From IMG/VR virus record IMGVR_UViG_3300032224_000835, positions 1 to 28,252 of that record: 28,252 nucleotides of DNA; one strand, 5' to 3'. The translations under genes were made by a program, and so were the position numbers. Below the pieces are notes generated by a model that saw only the letters and a program-made list of their open reading frames with translations, searched no databases and was not told the DNA's origin. Positions 3,285 through 28,214 of the stretch are shown here, one piece after another. This DNA is from a virus. Position 1 is the first letter of the stretch. The number at the start of each line of letters is the position of its first letter.

Positions 3285-3686
3285 TCAGGGACGAATGCCG
3301 TCCCAGTCCAGGATTATGACTCTCACGACCCCCAATTGCAACCCTTGCAGCTTAGCGAAGGCTTGTGGACTCAAGTCAATGTTGCGGCTCACGCCAGTCC
3401 AGGTGCGCTTGAGATCTTGAGCGCAGCGCTGGCAGTAGTCAGAAACGGTCACCGTTACGCATCGCTTGAGATTGTCTGCTCGACATACTTTCAAGCGGTA
3501 TGGCGTGTTGCCCCAGCGGAATGATCCTACCGCTGCGTACATCCGATTGCCACCGCGCGTGTACCACGCATTATTGGAGGTTGCGTCGTACCACGAGGCA
3601 ACGCCGCCAATCGGCACGCCTTGCGGCGTCTTAGCCCAGCACGCTGGATTCAATGCCAGCACGAGCGCTAAGAGTGGCGCGATCAC
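3285..3686 (-). CDS. secreted RlpA-like double-psi beta-barrel protein
   Basis: I choose the GTG at 3686, which shares GTGA with the upstream stop and has AGGAG 8 nt before it. This gives 133 residues that begin with a clean signal peptide (IAPLLALVLALNPACWA, cut probably after A18). An upstream start would bury the signal. The mature part has the RlpA marks GVASWYD, VTVSDYC and NIDLSPQAFAKL. RlpA relatives bind or cut peptidoglycan; expansins loosen cell walls. Four Cys residues in the mature part could form disulfides outside the cell. It sits among DNA metabolism genes, far from the lysis cassette, which is odd for a cell wall protein. Confidence 0.75.
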   Translation of the reverse strand: MIAPLLALVLALNPACWAKTPQGVPIGGVASWYDATSNNAWYTRGGNRMYAAVGSFRWGNTPYRLKVCRADNLKRCVTVTVSDYCQRCAQDLKRTWTGVSRNIDLSPQAFAKLQGLQLGVVRVIILDWDGIRP

Positions 3687-4075
3687 TCGGGCGGCTCCTG
3701 CGTTTGATTGACGAACCAATCCGCGAAGTCATCAAGGTCAAGCAGGATCATCGCGCGCCTACGGCCGCCGCCAGCTCCTGGGCTGTCGCCAATGACCAGT
3801 CCGCGCAACTGGTCGCCCTTGACCGGCACGCTCTGCAGCCAACCCCACTGGCGTTCGCTGAAACTTCCGCCCACCTTGCACTGGACTTGCAGCCAGTCGC
3901 CTTCTCCTCCTGTGGCATCAGCCTTGCCGCCGAAATGCCCCACGCGCCTGCCGCCAAGTTTCGCTGCGACAAATCGCTCGAACGCGTTGCCGCGAAGTCG
4001 TGAATTCTTCCCGCGCCGACTCTTCGCCGGATCAACGTTGTGCTCTTGAATGGCGAGGTCCTTCATCTTGCCCAT
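3683..4075 (-). CDS. PD-(D/E)XK-like nuclease / Holliday junction resolvase-like protein
   Basis: A 130-residue basic protein. After a Lys/Arg-rich N-terminus comes RGNAFERFVAAKLGGRRV (E33 in helix 1), then GDWLQVQCKVGGSFSE, which fits the D-x(n)-(D/E)-x-K pattern as D60 and Q65-C-K67. The Q in place of D/E makes catalysis less certain, although the overall helix-strand-strand order matches small phage resolvase-like nucleases. Start ATG overlaps the upstream stop as TGATG. If it is a resolvase it would complement endonuclease VII in the same operon; an inactive DNA-binding relative is the alternative. Confidence 0.55.
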   Translation of the reverse strand: MGKMKDLAIQEHNVDPAKSRRGKNSRLRGNAFERFVAAKLGGRRVGHFGGKADATGGEGDWLQVQCKVGGSFSERQWGWLQSVPVKGDQLRGLVIGDSPGAGGGRRRAMILLDLDDFADWFVNQTQEPPE

Positions 4076-4714: not shown

Positions 4715-4902
4715 TGTCCGACTCCGTTCAGCGTCACCACCAGGCGCTCGATCATTCGCTCAATTGCTTCCTGCGCGGTCGCTCCCGTCGTGCTGAATTC
4801 GCCATCCTCATCGTCAAGTATCACCGTCCAGACGCCGCTTATCTGCAGGCAGTCCTGGACCCGATACCCAGCCTGAGCTGCGAGAACTTCTAGTTCGTTC
4901 AT
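4711..4902 (-). CDS. hypothetical 63-residue acidic protein
   Basis: A small acidic protein with a beta-hairpin-like centre (GVWTVILDDEDGEFSTTG) followed by a helix (TAQEAIERMIERLVVTL). ATG overlaps the kinase stop as ATGA, so the two genes are translationally coupled. No family recognised. Confidence 0.55.
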   Translation of the reverse strand: MNELEVLAAQAGYRVQDCLQISGVWTVILDDEDGEFSTTGATAQEAIERMIERLVVTLNGVGH

Positions 4903-5462
4903 ACGACTCCCTCCATCGCATCCACAATCTCTCGGTACGCCTGCTCTGGCGTCAGTTCTGACGTGTCAACCGTAAGGTCAAACTCGGCGGCTGTCCAGCC
5001 CAATTCCGTAATGTCCGTCGTGCCGATCAGTTCGCCGCCCATCCTGCGCGCCCTCACCTCGTGATCAGCGGTCAGCCGGACAATAAAGATCTGAGGGTCC
5101 ACCATCCTGAGATAGTGCACCTCTTCTGGCAGTCGGACATCGTCAATGACCACGCCGTAGCCCAGTCGCTGGATCTCGGCGTAATCCTGTCGCCACACGC
5201 GCAACCAGAACGTCCTATCCACTTCACGAAGCGCCGCCCCGATGTCCTGAAGCAGCTCGCGGCCCGTGATGAGCGTCAGCCCTGAGTAGCGATCAACGAT
5301 GACCGTTTCATCCTTGCCCAGTTGCCGATAGGCAAGACTGGCAAGGTGCTTGATGGCGTCAGCGATGCCGTGCCGCTGGTAGCCACGATGCTCGCCGAAG
5401 AGCGCCGCGATGCTCGACTTCCCAGCGCCCTGTGGCCCGAGGATCGCCACCGATCTGCTCAC
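4899..5462 (-). CDS. P-loop deoxynucleoside monophosphate kinase-like protein
   Basis: A 187-residue P-loop NTPase. Walker A is GPQGAGKS at residues 9-16. A helical lid region follows, with GRELLQDIGAALREVDRTFW, a feature of phage deoxynucleotide monophosphate kinases, and then VVIDDVRLPEEVHYL and IFIVRLTADHEVRARR. These motifs match the phage dNMP kinase group, which phosphorylates dNMPs for DNA synthesis from host nucleotide pools. GTG start in a GTGA overlap with the upstream gene. A general adenylate-kinase-like role is the alternative. Confidence 0.78.
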   Translation of the reverse strand: MSRSVAILGPQGAGKSSIAALFGEHRGYQRHGIADAIKHLASLAYRQLGKDETVIVDRYSGLTLITGRELLQDIGAALREVDRTFWLRVWRQDYAEIQRLGYGVVIDDVRLPEEVHYLRMVDPQIFIVRLTADHEVRARRMGGELIGTTDITELGWTAAEFDLTVDTSELTPEQAYREIVDAMEGVV

Positions 5463-11517: not shown

Positions 11518-12105
11518 TTACTTCGCTGAAACGATCAGCGTTCGGTTCTGTGGCGCGTCGCCCTTTGAGGAAGCGAGTTGCTTCACCTGATCTTCGGTGA
11601 CGCTCACAGCGTATTCCTCGTCCCCCTTGCCACTCATTGTCGGGCACGCCCACATCCAGCCCTCCGTCGGATCGTAGGCGGCAACCGTGAAGTGACCATA
11701 AATGTCGCCGCGTTTCATCTTCAAGTGATGATCGTGCCAGGCGCTCATCTTGATGCCCTGGTAATACGGCATCCGCGCCTGATCCACGTTGATGATGAGC
11801 GCCGCGCCGCCCTTGGCTGCCTTAATCGCGTCATCCCACTTTTTCGGGTAGCTCGACTTAGCGCCAAGCTGTTTGACCGTCTTGGCGAGGTCGTTGAGGC
11901 TTGAGCCGTTATCGCTGACGCCTTGTTTTTCGGTGAAGCCAGTTGCCTTCGCCTTGGCTGCGATGCCCTCGGCAGCGCTGATCTCCTTCTTGAGCACCCA
12001 CGATGAGGCGCACGCCGCGCTGGACGGGCCGCAATCGTCGAGGATGCCCTTCTGACGCGCCTCTTGATCAACGGTGACTTGTGATCGAATCTTGAGCCGG
12101 CTCAC
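11518..12105 (-). CDS. C39-like cysteine peptidase, probable endolysin
   Basis: I place the start at the GTG at 12105, which shares GTGA with the XhlA-like stop; the ATG at 12126 has no SD. The 195-residue product shows the papain-like C39 pattern: nucleophile C25 in DDCGPSSAACAS, then H138 in YGHFTVAAYDPTEGW with D145. Such peptidases cut peptide stems or cross-bridges of peptidoglycan. There is no signal peptide, so export would depend on the holin. No separate wall-binding domain is obvious; the segment between about 35 and 110 is helical. The lysis role rests on the neighbours. Confidence 0.78.
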   Translation of the reverse strand: MSRLKIRSQVTVDQEARQKGILDDCGPSSAACASSWVLKKEISAAEGIAAKAKATGFTEKQGVSDNGSSLNDLAKTVKQLGAKSSYPKKWDDAIKAAKGGAALIINVDQARMPYYQGIKMSAWHDHHLKMKRGDIYGHFTVAAYDPTEGWMWACPTMSGKGDEEYAVSVTEDQVKQLASSKGDAPQNRTLIVSAK

Positions 12106-12293
12106 TTGCCTTGCCCCTGAATCCACGCGATGACGCCACCCAGTCCGCTGATGCCGAGCAGGAAGATAATGCCCTTCGCCAGGTTGAGCGCGCCACGACT
12201 CTCGGCAAGGTCAACCTTGATTTGCGTCAAGTCGCGCTCGATGCGATCCAGGCGCTTGAGAATCTCCTGGCTCTGGCTGGCAGTCACGGTCAC
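12102..12293 (-). CDS. XhlA-like small membrane protein
   Basis: A 63-residue protein: N-terminal coiled-coil helix (QEILKRLDRIERDLTQIKVD) followed by one TM helix (LAKGIIFLLGISGLGGVIAW) and a short tail. This is the layout of XhlA/hemolysin-type lysis proteins of Gram-positive phages. GTG start, GTGA overlaps on both sides. It may act as holin partner or antiholin to the r1t-like holin. Confidence 0.65.
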   Translation of the reverse strand: MTVTASQSQEILKRLDRIERDLTQIKVDLAESRGALNLAKGIIFLLGISGLGGVIAWIQGQGK

Positions 12294-21753: not shown

Positions 21754-22905
21754 TTAGGAAGCAGCGCCGCCCTTGAACGTCTTGACCGCGCTTGCCTCGA
21801 TAAGGCCAGTCACGCCGCGCACCTGAATGCGGTACGTCACAAGCCCGTAGTTGAAGGCGAAGTCAGCGCTTGAAGCGATGTCAACACCACCAACGAGGAC
21901 CGTCTTGATCGCGCCGAGGTCGCCGAAGGCAACGTTCAGTGCGTTCGCGGCCGAGTCAGCCAAGGCTGCTGAATAAACCGGGAAACCGAGAACTGTGTCT
22001 GGCTTGCTCAGGTCGCCTGGAATGAAGATCGGTCGGTTCTGTGAGTCGAGCAGCTTGATGATTCCACCAAGGGTGGCGTCGTTCATCAAGAATCCGCGCT
22101 TTGGCGCGCGGCGATACTGCTGCTTGACCGAGTACACAAGGTCAACAAGGTTGGCGTACGTCGGTGAATACACCGTCGTTGCACCAGTCACGCCGATTGT
22201 CGCCGCAGCCGCAACAGCGGTGCCTGCAACTGCGCCGTGAGCGATACCAACTTCCTGACCAGCCTTCTCAGCAACGAAGCCTGAGATGTCGAACGCTGCA
22301 TCGTTGATCAACTCGCCGCTGATCTGGAGCAGTGTCGCGTACTTGACTGGAGTGAGCGCGAGGTTGGACAGCGTTCCGTCCGACTCGCCAATTGCGCCGG
22401 CTTCAGAAACTGAACCCGCCGTTCCAAGCGCCGTAACGCGTGGAAGAAGGATCTGATTTCCTGTTGAAGCACGGATGATGTCAACAACGTCTGGATTGAG
22501 GAAAGGGTTCACCTGTCCTGCAATGACGTTGACCATTCCTGCGACCGAGACTGGATTGCCAAGTCCAGTGGACTTAACAACGTCGCGGTACTCAAAGTTT
22601 CGCTCTCCACCTTCGCGTCCAAGTCGGCGAAGTTCGGCCGCGTCATCCGCAGTCTCGTTCGTCTTTGGCGCTACAGCGGCGGCGTACTCCGCGCGAACTG
22701 CGTCAGCGGCACTGCGTGCCTCTGCTGCATCTCGCTCTGACTTGATGGCGGCAGCGATCTGCCCGGCTTCGGTTGTGAGGGCCTCGAATCGTGCCTGTGC
22801 CTCACCCTCAAGCGCTTCGCCCTTCTCAGCCTGAGCCGAGACAAGAGCGGACGCATCGGTAAGCAGAGCAGCACGCTTCTCAGCAAGCTTCTTAATGTCT
22901 GCCAT
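21754..22905 (-). CDS. major capsid protein, HK97 fold
   Basis: A 383-residue protein. Residues 1-95 are an Ala/Glu-rich coiled coil (IKKLAEKRAALLTDASALVS), the delta or scaffold domain of HK97 capsids, which the protease of the next gene upstream would remove, probably near residues 95-105. The body has the HK97 marks LGREGGERNFEYRDVVKS, VNVIAGQVNPFLNPDVVDII, RRAPKRGFLMNDATLGGIIK and FGDLGAIKTVLVGG. AAGGAG 7 nt before ATG, with an A/T-rich leader. Cleavage point is inferred. Confidence 0.9.
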   Translation of the reverse strand: MADIKKLAEKRAALLTDASALVSAQAEKGEALEGEAQARFEALTTEAGQIAAAIKSERDAAEARSAADAVRAEYAAAVAPKTNETADDAAELRRLGREGGERNFEYRDVVKSTGLGNPVSVAGMVNVIAGQVNPFLNPDVVDIIRASTGNQILLPRVTALGTAGSVSEAGAIGESDGTLSNLALTPVKYATLLQISGELINDAAFDISGFVAEKAGQEVGIAHGAVAGTAVAAAATIGVTGATTVYSPTYANLVDLVYSVKQQYRRAPKRGFLMNDATLGGIIKLLDSQNRPIFIPGDLSKPDTVLGFPVYSAALADSAANALNVAFGDLGAIKTVLVGGVDIASSADFAFNYGLVTYRIQVRGVTGLIEASAVKTFKGGAAS

Positions 22906-23013: not shown

Positions 23014-25011
23014 CTAGATTTCCTCGTTGATCATCGCAGATAGGCGAAGTTGTGCCGCTGCAATCGTCGGGTCAATGCCACGCTTTGTGGATTTGGTTCC
23101 CAACTTGATGCGTACGGCGTCAATCACCGCAGTCTGCTCTTCTGTAAGTTCGCGCGCCGCGCCAATGTTCGCCAGCGCAGCGGCGAGCGTGTCGCCATCT
23201 ACGCCAAGTGACTTGCGCGCAACCTTGCGAACGGCAGCCAGTCCAGTAGTCGCAGGGTATGCGGCGCGCTGTCCTGGGCTGAGGATGGAGGCTTCAATCA
23301 GGTTAACTTCGGCAAGCGTTCGCTCTTCGCCGTTCCAGGAGTCGCCGCCCTTTGGAACGGTAAAGCCGAACGACATTCCAGAAGATGCGGATTCGTGCGT
23401 CAGCATCGAGATCACCTTCGCGGCGTCTGGATCTGACGGGTCAAGTTTCGCTTCTACGCGAAGCCCCTTGGCGTCTTCGCTCAACTTCAGGCGGCCGCTC
23501 GCGGTCGTTGCAAGCGCGCGTGTCTCATCGTGTCCGAAGAGGAATGCGACGACTTTCTGTCCAGCCGCTGCGCGCGACAGGCTGCGCTTAAACGCGCCCG
23601 GCTTAATGAACTCAGTGAACGGCAGCCCAGCCGAAGGTGAATCAAAGAGCGCGGCGTACCCGCTGAAGGTGCGCTGACCATCGGCACTCTCTGTCACCGT
23701 GAAGTCGCCCATCTCGGCTGCTCGCGTCTCAATGTCCTTGAACTGCGAGCGAGCTGGAGCGTCAGAAGTTGTGTCGTGCGGCTGCGCTTCAGCCATCGGC
23801 TCGGCGGCTTCCTCATCAACCTCGGCGCGGACAACGATCGTATCGGTCCAGCCGAGCACTGCTTCGCAGGAGTCATCAACCGTTGGATCTACGCCATAGA
23901 GGAGCGCGAATACTGCCCAAGGAGACGGCCACGAAGGATCAGTCTTGTCTTCAGCGGACGGAATGCCCTCCCACTTCTCGCGGTTGATCAGGATCATCCG
24001 CTCGATCTCGCCGACTTCCTCAACTTCAATCTGTCCTGATGCGAGCGCCTGACCGTGTTCAAAGTCGCTCGCGGTGACATCAGCGCCGCCGATACCGGTG
24101 TTGTACAGCTCGACGCCTGCTGCTGCAGCCATCTGGATGTACGCAGGCACGGCAACAACGTCACCCTGCAGAGCGCGTGGCTCAACTTCTTTCACGTTTG
24201 ATCTCTCCGCATTAGCGAGTGTGGTAATCACTCTGTTCGCCCATCCTATCACCTGATCAGCGCTGCTTTCGCTTGTCGGATCTACGCCCCATAGCAGCGC
24301 TGCAACTGCGCCTGGCCCTGGATAGTCGGCATTATTGGCGTCGTTATTCTGTGGCACGTTTTCCCAGTCAACACGGTGGCGCGAAATCCAGGCGCTCATT
24401 CGAATCACCTTGTCTTGTGTGACGTTGCCAGCAACAAGTTGCGTGGCTTCTTGAATCGTTTGTGGCTTCAGCCCAGCGCCGGCACGCCCCTGCTTCTCAT
24501 ACGCCAGTCCCTTGACCGCTGCAGCCTTGATGTAGACGGGAACGTCTATCGCGGGGACTGCTCGACTTGGCATTGCAGGATCAGCGAAGGTGGAATGACC
24601 CTCTTCCTGAAGGTGCTGTTCTGGCGTCACCGCGCGAAGCCCCAATGACTTCGCCATTGCGATCACCTCTGGATCGTTGTCAATTGCGTAGTCAATGCCA
24701 TCTGGATTGGATGCAGACTGAATGCCGTATTGCTTAATGAGCGCTTCGTATTTCGCCTTCTTAAAGGCGAGTCCGACGTTTGGTCCCTTGCCTGCCCCAG
24801 CGAAGTCATTGAGATGAATCTGATCGTATTGAATCTTGTTATCGGAGAGCCACTTCTTTGTTTCGTCAAGTCGGCTTACTGGACGCGCGGATACGACGAT
24901 GAACTTCGTTCCCTCCTGCGCTGCATCCTCCTGGACGTACTGCACCATCTTTGCATTTGGCGTATTGCCTGAAGTTGTCAGGGTGCCGTCAATGTCAATG
25001 ATCTCGTACAT
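23014..25011 (-). CDS. HAD phosphatase - duplicated helical domain - HK97 prohead protease fusion
   Basis: A 665-residue protein, about three times the length of a usual prohead protease. Residues 1-140 are a HAD phosphatase with motif I DIDGT (D6, D8), motif II VVSARP (S41), a Lys-rich motif III area and motif IV AIDNDPE (D111, D113); it resembles the phosphatase part of polynucleotide kinases. Residues about 157-266 and 288-396 are two copies of one helical unit (VPxYIxxAA ... GVDPT). Residues about 425-600 are the S78-type protease with H494, S547 (GMSFGF) and E573 as likely triad. The tail 605-665 is helical. The ATG follows the portal stop directly. Confidence 0.88.
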   Translation of the reverse strand: MYEIIDIDGTLTTSGNTPNAKMVQYVQEDAAQEGTKFIVVSARPVSRLDETKKWLSDNKIQYDQIHLNDFAGAGKGPNVGLAFKKAKYEALIKQYGIQSASNPDGIDYAIDNDPEVIAMAKSLGLRAVTPEQHLQEEGHSTFADPAMPSRAVPAIDVPVYIKAAAVKGLAYEKQGRAGAGLKPQTIQEATQLVAGNVTQDKVIRMSAWISRHRVDWENVPQNNDANNADYPGPGAVAALLWGVDPTSESSADQVIGWANRVITTLANAERSNVKEVEPRALQGDVVAVPAYIQMAAAAGVELYNTGIGGADVTASDFEHGQALASGQIEVEEVGEIERMILINREKWEGIPSAEDKTDPSWPSPWAVFALLYGVDPTVDDSCEAVLGWTDTIVVRAEVDEEAAEPMAEAQPHDTTSDAPARSQFKDIETRAAEMGDFTVTESADGQRTFSGYAALFDSPSAGLPFTEFIKPGAFKRSLSRAAAGQKVVAFLFGHDETRALATTASGRLKLSEDAKGLRVEAKLDPSDPDAAKVISMLTHESASSGMSFGFTVPKGGDSWNGEERTLAEVNLIEASILSPGQRAAYPATTGLAAVRKVARKSLGVDGDTLAAALANIGAARELTEEQTAVIDAVRIKLGTKSTKRGIDPTIAAAQLRLSAMINEEI

Positions 25012-26223
25012 CTACTGTCCGCTCCCTTGCGTTGGCGGCTGACCGATCAGCCCAAGGTTAAGTGGCTGACGGAAATTGTCCCCGCCTGAACCGATTGGCG
25101 CTCGGTCTTCTAGTTGCCTGATTTCGTTCACCGAAAGCCAGCCATTGTTCAGCGCGACTGCATAGGCATCGTATCGCTCTTTCGTTGTTGCACGGAGCAG
25201 TGCATCAAGATTGAACTTGATAAAGGTGGTGTTGCCAACAACAAGGCGCTGAAGCGCCGATTCAAGTCGAGCAATCAATGGCCCAAGACCCAAAACTAAC
25301 CAGGCTTGCCCAAGTGACTCCGCGCTGTTATATGACGTGTTGCCGCCTGGATACTGAAGGTATTGAAGCGGGACGCCGTAGATGCGCGCAATGGATTCAA
25401 CGCCCCAGTGCATTGTGTCAACCAATGCAAGGTCCGCTGGCTTGAAGCTCATCGTCGTAAAGTCCGCGCCGCCGGTGAGCACTGCAACACGATGCATCTT
25501 GTCCACGCCTTCGTGCTTGCGCCCAAATGATGCGCGCAGAGACTCAGCCTGATCAGCGGTCAGTTCGCCGGGGACCTTGATAATCCCTGAAGGCGAGGCC
25601 CCTTGCTCAAAAAACTTGGCTCCAAAAAGTTGCGTTGCTGATGCGAGTCCGAGCGTCACGCGATGATGCTCAACTGGGGACAGTCCGCGAAGATCCTCGG
25701 TAATTGGTCCCTGCAACGTGATGTGAACGATCTCGTCGGTTCCGAATACTCCAGTCCCTTGATCGCTCTTGATGTGATATTCCGGCGTTCCGTCAGCCAG
25801 CACCTTGATAGAAACTTTGCGAGGATCAAGCACTCGACATTCACGAACGACGCCAGTGGCGTCGCGCATCGTCAAGATGAATGTGTTGCCGTCAAGTAGC
25901 AGTGACGTAACCATCTTGTGACGGAAGTCAAAGCCCGTGAAGTTTGGATTGTTTGGAATCGGCGTGTCCATCCAGAGCGGTCGGGTGACAGGTCGGCGCG
26001 ATCCATCGGAGCGGATGTAGGCGCCCCACGGAAGAGAGGCAACGGTGTCTGCATACAACTTGATTATTGCGAACAGCGGTGCGATGTCAAGCGCATTGTC
26101 TTGGTTGATTGCAACGCCGGCGTACTTGTTGGTGCCATCGCGCCACCAGTCGTTTCCCCATCCTCCACCAATTGCGCGTTTCTCCTCAACCTCTCGGCCA
26201 AGGATTCGGTCAATGATTCCCAT
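25012..26223 (-). CDS. portal protein, HK97 family
   Basis: A 403-residue portal. Typical parts in order: APLFAIIKLYADTVASLPWGAY, a strand-rich wing with HKMVTSLLLDGNTFILTMRD, DEIVHITLQGPITEDLRGLSP, the helix-rich stem, and the WLSVNEIRQLEDRAPIGSGGD near the end. Twelve copies form the ring through which DNA enters the head. SD GGGAG before the ATG, 9 nt after the large terminase stop. Usual family length. Confidence 0.92.
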   Translation of the reverse strand: MGIIDRILGREVEEKRAIGGGWGNDWWRDGTNKYAGVAINQDNALDIAPLFAIIKLYADTVASLPWGAYIRSDGSRRPVTRPLWMDTPIPNNPNFTGFDFRHKMVTSLLLDGNTFILTMRDATGVVRECRVLDPRKVSIKVLADGTPEYHIKSDQGTGVFGTDEIVHITLQGPITEDLRGLSPVEHHRVTLGLASATQLFGAKFFEQGASPSGIIKVPGELTADQAESLRASFGRKHEGVDKMHRVAVLTGGADFTTMSFKPADLALVDTMHWGVESIARIYGVPLQYLQYPGGNTSYNSAESLGQAWLVLGLGPLIARLESALQRLVVGNTTFIKFNLDALLRATTKERYDAYAVALNNGWLSVNEIRQLEDRAPIGSGGDNFRQPLNLGLIGQPPTQGSGQ

Positions 26224-26232
26224 TCGTTCTCC

Positions 26233-27855
26233 CTACAACTCCAGGTACTCAACCTTGGCGCGCGCCTTCGGCGCGGGTGCGTTGCCAAGTGTACCCGCTC
26301 GGCTGTGTGCCATTAACGCAGCGACCAAAAGGTCAATGCGCTTAAGTGAAGTCTTGGACTCTTTCCGAATCATAAGCCCATTGCGGCTGTAATACGGTGT
26401 GGCATTTGCAGCGTGTCTGGCAAGGCTCGGATCGCCGTTATGCTTGACCCGCCTGTTGACGACCGCGTCGTAAAACGCTGCTGTCGCAGGCACCATTCGG
26501 CTTGGCGTCTGAGGGAACTCGACCACAGGCAACCCCACCTGCTGCCACGCCTCCATTGAGCGCTGCCATCGGAACGGGTCACAAACGATTTCTCGAACCG
26601 TGTAGCTGGAACAGATGTCCAGCATCTTGGCTTCCACCTCTTCCACCGGCACGCGCCAGTTGAGTTCTGCATCGAGCGGCCGCTCCCAGTGCCCCAGCAC
26701 GAAGAATGCCTTATCGCTCACGCGGCAGGCAACGATGGCAGTGGAGTCGTTGCTGAACGAACCGTCGAATCCCAGTACGACTTCATCCTCCTTGTTGAGC
26801 GCGATTTGATCATCCTTGCAGGCGTCCCACGTCCCAGTTGGCAGGAATGCTTGTGAACTGCTCACCCACTGATTGAGTCGCTTCGTCCTGAACTCCTGCT
26901 CTGGCGTGCGTTTCTTCGCGCTCTGCAAGTCTTCAATGCTCAAGATTGCAGGGTCGCTCATCAGTCCTGGATTCGCTTCGCTCCACTTCGTATCGTCGCC
27001 GTAGGCATCATCGGCGGCTTCCCACCACGCCATCCCAAGGGTCGTGTCATCGTTCTCACCCGTGATTCGGCGACGCGCCAGTTGGTAGAGCGTGTACGCG
27101 ATGGAATCTCCACCCGTTGAGTCAACGCGCGGACCAGCCGTGGTGATAGCGACGAACAACGGCGACTTTCGCGCGCCCATTGAGAGCGAGAGGACGTCAA
27201 ATAGTTCGCGGCTCGGCCAGGCTGCCAACTCATCGGCGATCACCAGAGAAGCGCTCAAGCCCTCCTTGGTGAATGCTTCAGAAGAGAGCGCCTTGTAGAC
27301 GGTGCCAGTCCCCTTGAACTCCATCGCATCCCTAAACACCTTGATCTGGCTGCCAAGTTCTGGACTCATCTCAACGGCGCGGCGCGCGTGGCTCATTACT
27401 AGTTTGGCCTGATCGCGATCAGCGGCGGCTGAATAGATTTCGCCGCCCTTGTCGCCGTAAAGTCCGAAGAAGAGCGGCAACGTCGATGCAAGCGCCGTCT
27501 TGCCGTTCTTGCGCGCAATTCCAGTCAGAAAGAATCGGTGCGTGAAGGTGTCATCCTCCTTGCGAGCCAGCATCCTGCGGAGCAGGCGACGCTGCCATTG
27601 GCGAAACACGAGCGGCTCGCCCGAAGCGCCAGCGATGGAATCCTTGGCGATGGGCACGAGCTCCTCGGCGAAGTCTGAGACGATGTCCCCAAGGCTGCGG
27701 CTGAGGTCAGCCGGAGCGACTGGAGTCAGCCAGCGCGGTGGCCAGCCTTCGCCGCCAGCCGCTCGCGGTATTTGTCCACCTTGCTCTGGCTCTCGACCAT
27801 TGCGATCCCCAGCTTCGCTCGGTCCGCTGGAGTCAATCCGAGATGATTCATCCAC
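26233..27855 (-). CDS. terminase large subunit
   Basis: A 540-residue terminase of the Terminase_1 kind. ATPase: Walker A TGIARKNGKT at about 111-120 and Walker B LVIADE with D208-E209. Nuclease: D364 in VLGFDGSFSND, D426 in VCDPFRW and D508 in KRIDLLVAALMAH. The ATG at 27855 has AGGAGAG 13 nt upstream and overlaps terS by 130 nt; the first 40 residues are polar and may not be translated, but there is no other ATG before residue 95, so the start is uncertain. The type pairs with P27-family small subunits. Confidence 0.92.
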   Translation of the reverse strand: MDESSRIDSSGPSEAGDRNGREPEQGGQIPRAAGGEGWPPRWLTPVAPADLSRSLGDIVSDFAEELVPIAKDSIAGASGEPLVFRQWQRRLLRRMLARKEDDTFTHRFFLTGIARKNGKTALASTLPLFFGLYGDKGGEIYSAAADRDQAKLVMSHARRAVEMSPELGSQIKVFRDAMEFKGTGTVYKALSSEAFTKEGLSASLVIADELAAWPSRELFDVLSLSMGARKSPLFVAITTAGPRVDSTGGDSIAYTLYQLARRRITGENDDTTLGMAWWEAADDAYGDDTKWSEANPGLMSDPAILSIEDLQSAKKRTPEQEFRTKRLNQWVSSSQAFLPTGTWDACKDDQIALNKEDEVVLGFDGSFSNDSTAIVACRVSDKAFFVLGHWERPLDAELNWRVPVEEVEAKMLDICSSYTVREIVCDPFRWQRSMEAWQQVGLPVVEFPQTPSRMVPATAAFYDAVVNRRVKHNGDPSLARHAANATPYYSRNGLMIRKESKTSLKRIDLLVAALMAHSRAGTLGNAPAPKARAKVEYLEL

Positions 27856-28214
27856 TTGCGAATACTCTCCTCTGCACTGTGTCTCATCCCCATTGCAGGA
27901 TGAGCATACGCGTAACCTTTATCCGTGTACAACACTGGTCCATCAACGCTGATCCGCGCCTCCAGGTTAGCCAGCAGCTCGATGTCCTTTACCAGCATCG
28001 TGAGAGCATCTCGATCGCTCACCGCGATCCACGCCCCGGCGTATTGAACGATTCGCTGCCAAGCATCCGTGGCGATCGGCCCTAATCCGTCTGGAACGCC
28101 CAGCTCAGAAGCTCTGGGAAGGCTGTTGGCGATCTGTACGACCACGGCACGACTAGGCTTCAGCGTCCCACGCTTCGCCTTGATCTCGTTAGGCACACGG
28201 GCAGGGCCACTCAT
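27726..28214 (-). CDS. terminase small subunit, P27 family
   Basis: A 162-residue DNA-recognition subunit with the P27-type pattern: VPNEIKAKRGTLKPSR at the start, DGLGPIATDAWQRIVQYAG, DRDALTMLVKDIELLANL, then HPAMGMRHSAEESIRKWMNHLGLTPADRAKLG. It selects the phage DNA end for packaging by the large subunit. ATG after AGGGGG. First gene seen on the minus strand at the right edge of the window. Confidence 0.88.
   Translation of the reverse strand: MSGPARVPNEIKAKRGTLKPSRAVVVQIANSLPRASELGVPDGLGPIATDAWQRIVQYAGAWIAVSDRDALTMLVKDIELLANLEARISVDGPVLYTDKGYAYAHPAMGMRHSAEESIRKWMNHLGLTPADRAKLGIAMVESQSKVDKYRERLAAKAGHRAG

Follow-up and report, generated by a model that had tools for sequence, protein, structure and literature searches.

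A predicted HAD phosphatase as an exchangeable N-terminal cassette on an HK97-type prohead protease

Judged from sequence comparison, a predicted phosphatase of the HAD superfamily is carried, as an exchangeable N-terminal cassette, by the prohead protease of an HK97-type virus, a finding that is new here; the architecture is widespread yet unremarked and, far from being unique to this virus, is shared by a large group of uncultivated phages. The DNA analysed, called the window throughout, is a linear IMG/VR virus record of 28,252 bases. Prohead proteases, with their 200 or so residues, usually pass for plain maturation enzymes, and what is added to this picture is a protease of the HK97 type whose N-terminal cassette can be swapped and is probably enzymatic. 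The explanation that we favour, with moderate confidence, is that the gene encodes a modular HK97-type prohead protease whose N-terminus would serve as a carrier for swappable modules, the phosphatase among them, that enter the prohead.

The fusion gene and its protease domain

The window has the gene order usual for HK97-like phages, with terminase small and large subunits, portal, fusion gene, major capsid protein (MCP) and tail genes (Table 1). An earlier note on this DNA had described a single uninterrupted frame of 665 codons joining HAD, helical and prohead protease domains, and this frame proved to be real, conserved and recurrent. It is encoded by the minus strand, stops interrupting the plus strand over this interval, and its ATG directly follows the portal stop codon. 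A portal gene directly upstream and an MCP gene directly downstream, the setting that marks an S78 protease, were found in the window and in 161 of the 172 loci with room on both sides.

The C-terminal domain passed the curated cut-offs of both TIGR01543 (79.9 against 59 bits) and PF04586 (97.7 against 21 bits). It is the complete protease recognised earlier, with the catalytic His, Ser and Glu (H494, S547 and E573) present and invariant in 31 aligned sequences. Protease domain, catalytic residues and gene position between portal and MCP are those of the HK97 family prohead protease (S78, TIGR01543, PF04586); the window protein differs from it by about 430 extra N-terminal residues, which hold the HAD and helical domains. 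In our preferred explanation the S78 domain would do its normal maturation job and the N-terminus of the protease would be an exchangeable cassette site, occupied here by a Pnkp-like HAD domain that is joined to it by two helical spacer or adaptor domains.

Table 1. Coordinates in the window of the fusion gene, its predicted domains and the neighbouring head genes.
Feature	Position	Strand	Basis
Fusion gene P0001, 665 aa: HAD, helical, helical, prohead protease	23014..25011	-	Open frame; start coupled to portal stop
Predicted HAD phosphatase domain, residues 1-137	24601..25011	-	phrog_415 7e-10; Foldseek T4 Pnkp 4e-4; AF2 pLDDT 95-98
Helical domain copy 1, residues 155-269, phrog_2859 type	24205..24549	-	phrog_2859 1e-7; AF2 pLDDT 93
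Helical domain copy 2, residues 286-399, rare L013-type subfamily	23815..24156	-	53% to L013-type copy
Flexible linker before protease, residues 403-432, candidate self-cleavage zone	23716..23805	-	pLDDT <50
S78 / HK97-type prohead protease domain, residues 433-599	23215..23715	-	PF04586 1e-27; TIGR01543 2e-22; phrog_80 3e-33
Major capsid protein, HK97 fold, directly downstream of fusion gene	21754..22905	-	PF05065 7e-32
Portal protein, directly upstream of fusion gene	25012..26223	-	PF04860 1e-79
Terminase large subunit	26233..27855	-	PF03354/PF20441
Terminase small subunit	27726..28214	-	PF05119

The HAD domain and its relation to Pnkp phosphatases

The N-terminus had been assigned to the HAD superfamily from its motif residues, and this identity held. 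Motifs I (DxDGT, with D6 and D8), II (S41), III (K84) and IV (D111) are present, and AlphaFold2 (AF2) and Foldseek confirm the fold. For this domain, placed at residues 2-134, Pfam gave only a weak match (Hydrolase_3, 7e-4), PHROGs returned phrog_415, named 'polynucleotide kinase', and phrog_505 (3e-5), and a profile built from 16 HAD sequences found Pnkp1 in the PDB (2.7e-4). The top Foldseek matches of the confident AF2 model were T4 Pnkp, the T4 Pnkp 3′-phosphatase and Pnkp1 (E about 4e-4 for these). The profile searches and Foldseek thus bear out the proposal that the domain is closest to nucleic-acid 3′-phosphatases of the Pnkp type. Among named proteins its nearest relatives are actinophage Pnkp enzymes, one of which adjoins an RNA ligase.

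The likeness to T4 Pnkp, Pnkp1 and the actinophage PseT-type PNKP phosphatase (PF25109), which covers the HAD fold, DxDGT, S-x-R, Lys and Asp and gives the best structural match, does not justify a simple Pnkp label: several Pnkp features are missing, and 3′-phosphate DNA or RNA is for this reason only a candidate substrate. When aligned with two actinophage PNKPs, the domain lacked their long loop after motif I, in which an Arg is conserved (the Pnkp substrate loop), having a shorter one instead, and motif IV was not of the DDR type, DND (Asn second) being usual and DDS occurring sometimes. The cut-off of PF25109 (HAD_PNKP; 27.6 bits) was reached neither by the window (13.1) nor by the best relative (21.1). 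The fusion protein of the window has no kinase domain, and among 19 related records, many of which may be fragments, neither an RNA ligase (0/19) nor an AAA_33 domain (Pnkp-type kinase) above cut-off (0/19) was found. Membership in a phage RNA-repair system of Pnkp and RNA ligase was rejected, its partner genes not having been found in those 19 records. Unlike the PNKPs, this HAD domain is also fused to a protease.

Conservation of the domain was followed in 87 distinct HAD sequences from HAD and protease fusions at the same gene position in other IMG/VR contigs. The residues D6, D8, S41, R43, R47, D69, K84 and D111 were unchanged in 88/88 distinct HADs taken from the lists of the best 80 relatives, while identity to the window dropped to about 41% with the catalytic set invariant. 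Median dN/dS was lowest in the protease (0.10), followed by the helical domain (0.15) and HAD (0.18); all three domains are under purifying selection. Since Pnkp-type enzymes are the best solved matches and the catalytic residues are kept in 88/88 sequences, the predicted phosphatase is probably catalytically active, and retention of exactly the catalytic set is not what one would expect of a structural relic.

Where a HAD domain was present, it occurred once per record and always inside a long fusion frame. An alternative would have the domain active in the cytoplasm of the cell that produces the phage, in nucleotide or RNA metabolism or in counter-defence, the fusion setting only its timing and dose and the domain being lost before or during packaging. 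The actinophage Pnkp enzymes, one of them beside an RNA ligase, speak for such a role, which we nonetheless think quite unlikely: HAD is fused, and not merely adjacent, to the protease in nearly all close relatives found, the kinase and ligase partners are absent from the 19 records, and no strong internal ribosome site for a separately translated protease was found within the fusion gene. Separate translation of the protease was rejected on this last ground.

Recurrence of the fusion and the helical domains

A search for the same fusion in viral metagenomes, as the earlier note had proposed, showed that many IMG/VR contigs carry a HAD-protease fusion. A first scan turned up six contigs whose fusions, 393-419 aa long, occupy the same place in the operon; alignment-based, HAD-based and helical-based scans found 449, 297 and 334 relatives, of which the best 80 of each were analysed. 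The resulting counts come from lists ranked by similarity to the queries and are biased towards them, and their proportions are not a census. Among 146 distinct proteins in these best-80 lists, the commonest form was HAD, one helical domain and protease (78), followed by z1-z2-helical-protease (38; z1 and z2 are described below), HAD-protease (15), HAD-z2-helical-protease (6) and a few others; the HAD-helical-helical-protease order was seen in the window alone among the 146. The belief that no system of such a layout had been described stands insofar as no paper on a HAD-prohead protease fusion was found in the open literature, most subscription journals lying outside the reach of that search, but the fusion itself is widespread, occurring at the same position in over 100 other virus loci. 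No host or prophage copies were found in 84,980 genomes.

The possibility that an assembly error had joined two genes, raised in the earlier note, could be invoked only on the ground that the exact domain order occurs in one record among the relatives analysed. Its probability is practically negligible, since L075, the nearest relative, shows HAD joined to the protease in the same way within one frame and dozens of independent contigs carry three-part fusions, and a gene-join error was rejected on the strength of this recurrence.

In L127 (1971-3418) the HAD-helical and protease parts lie in two overlapping frames, which may reflect a sequencing frameshift or else a genuine split; its sister L146 has them in one frame with a deletion in the protease. 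In L126 (2715-4385) a very divergent S78 protease is fused to HAD-helical, and the fusion therefore spans distant protease lineages.

The helical region had been described as a duplicated domain. Two all-helical domains are indeed predicted by structure, but they are not a recent duplication: the copies are 32% identical and fall into two divergent subfamilies. Copy 1, which matches the phrog_2859 profile (1.3e-7), is up to 64% identical to the single helical copy of relatives, whereas copy 2 can be linked to this type only by way of relatives and the A5/A8 alignments. The closest match of copy 2, at 53% identity, is a rare subfamily made up of L013 and three others. Since the copies belong to two pre-existing divergent subfamilies, each closer to other phages than to its neighbour, a recent tandem duplication was rejected, and by these identities the window protein combines the two subfamilies. 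DNA homology between the window and L075, whose HAD-protease fusion lacks helical domains, breaks off near codon 139 and picks up again near codon 425: the helical pair stands in place of the HAD-protease linker.

No relatives of the helical domain were found in the PDB, nor any solved relative of the confident copy 1 model. In BFVD, structural comparison found the fold in proteins of uncultured phages that are named XkdF, portal, ParB/sulfiredoxin, Dps and Tudor-like, and the domain, as modelled, qualifies as a widespread unnamed phage adaptor domain. Some of its carriers in BFVD are named 'HAD-like domain containing protein'. Similar proteins apparently already stand in databases as 'Prohead protease' or under that HAD-like name; single pieces are there, and probably whole relatives too.

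Exchange of N-terminal modules and possible roles in the prohead

The strongest of the new evidence, that for exchange, came from pairs of closely related loci. The protease DNA of L229, which carries HAD, is 99.2% identical to that of L241, which carries z1-z2, and identity is 96.7% over about 2 kb from the HAD end to MCP. On the upstream side, homology (84%) reaches 13 nt into HAD, and on the downstream side it restarts 5 nt past the HAD end; 224 locus pairs of this kind, many of them redundant, break near the same domain edges. HAD was also exchanged for HAD, two proteases 97% identical carrying HADs 47% identical to each other. The module z1 is short ('MPYFITD..GWATVKxDGEVxGCH') and, together with z2, replaces HAD in the N-terminal 150 aa (L022, L038, L060 and others), z2 being a four-cysteine (Cys4) module with weak likeness to high-potential iron-sulphur proteins (HiPIP). 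A third module, DUF5824 (PF19141, 1.6e-8), is inserted after HAD (or z1) and ahead of the helical domain or z2 at L114 (2522-2956), L115 and L026. HAD is regarded as an exchangeable cassette because near-identical proteases have in front of them HAD in some phages and an unrelated Cys-rich module in others, the breaks falling at the domain edges.

The exchange suggests that the head protease is used for carrying exchangeable cargo into the virus particle. HK97-type proteases are assembled and work inside the prohead, and for this reason an N-terminal domain should enter it too; the phosphatase would be carried in along with the protease. The linkers at residues 140-149, 273-281 and 403-432 are predicted by AF2 to be disordered, which makes release by self-processing plausible, and the HAD domain would probably be cut free there as the protease processes its surroundings. 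No cleavage site was identified in the fusion linkers, and a comparison of these with the MCP processing region for a shared cleavage motif brought out nothing decisive. A phosphorylated nucleotide or nucleic-acid end may be what the HAD domain acts on, whether inside the head as it matures or once delivered to the next host.

Clean swapping of cassettes among near-identical phages is also seen with host-interaction and anti-defence functions. A broader proposal, which we hold tentatively and with some doubt, makes the prohead protease a general cargo carrier whose N-terminal slot swaps HAD phosphatase, Cys4 module and DUF5824; these would ride into the head, be cut free by the protease itself and be delivered with the DNA, probably to act against host defence or to mend nucleic-acid ends.

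The same exchange can be read structurally, the N-terminal modules providing extra scaffold, size control or protease docking in the prohead core and HAD being merely a convenient folded domain. That unrelated z1-z2 replace HAD with the rest of the gene unchanged fits this reading, swapping for a Cys-rich module that is not an enzyme could point to a role in structure and not in catalysis, and many phages have the helical domain next to proteases, XkdF, portal and MCP. We regard it as unlikely, however, since a purely structural role would not need the HAD catalytic residues to stay invariant, as they do in 88/88 sequences, amid drift elsewhere in the domain, and the MCP already bears, from its sequence, a scaffold-like N-terminal region of about 100 residues. 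Under the carrier explanation that we prefer, the existence of a widespread lineage whose protease bears a conserved phosphatase, or another module instead, suggests a protease gene able to load the capsid interior, and its N-terminus may offer a natural tag for loading enzymes into phage heads.

Among known systems, the closest cultured relative is the actinophage Pontimonas phage phiPsal1 (TerL 45%, MCP 33%), and by these identities the window belongs to a related HK97-type lineage. The phiPsal1 prohead protease (AUV61415) likewise has a helical domain before the S78 protease and the same gene order, but carries z1 and Cys4 z2 in place of HAD and a single helical domain. Roseobacter phage CRP-831 and Synechococcus phages S-CBS1 and S-CBS3 also have the phrog_2859 helical domain at the N-terminus of the head protease; they differ from the window in having no HAD and in fusing the protease to MCP as protease-capsid polyproteins, and CRP-831 has DUF5824 as well. 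The scaffold is removed proteolytically in HK97 and T4 (reviewed in PMC3185693), and a precedent is offered by the internal head proteins of P1, which have a part in infection and undergo processing by the prohead protease (PMC12810830); DarA and Hdf of P1 are separate proteins, unlike the protease fusion of the window.

Three further genes of the window, all on the minus strand, were noted in passing. That at 11518-12126 has by eye the look of a C39-type papain-like peptidase (DCGPSS..., HFTVA), without a Pfam match, and a short protein at 3285-3719 has, also by eye, an RlpA/expansin-like (double-psi barrel) cell-wall likeness. A deoxynucleotide monophosphate kinase-like gene (PF21448) at 4899-5462 is the only nucleotide kinase recognised in the window.
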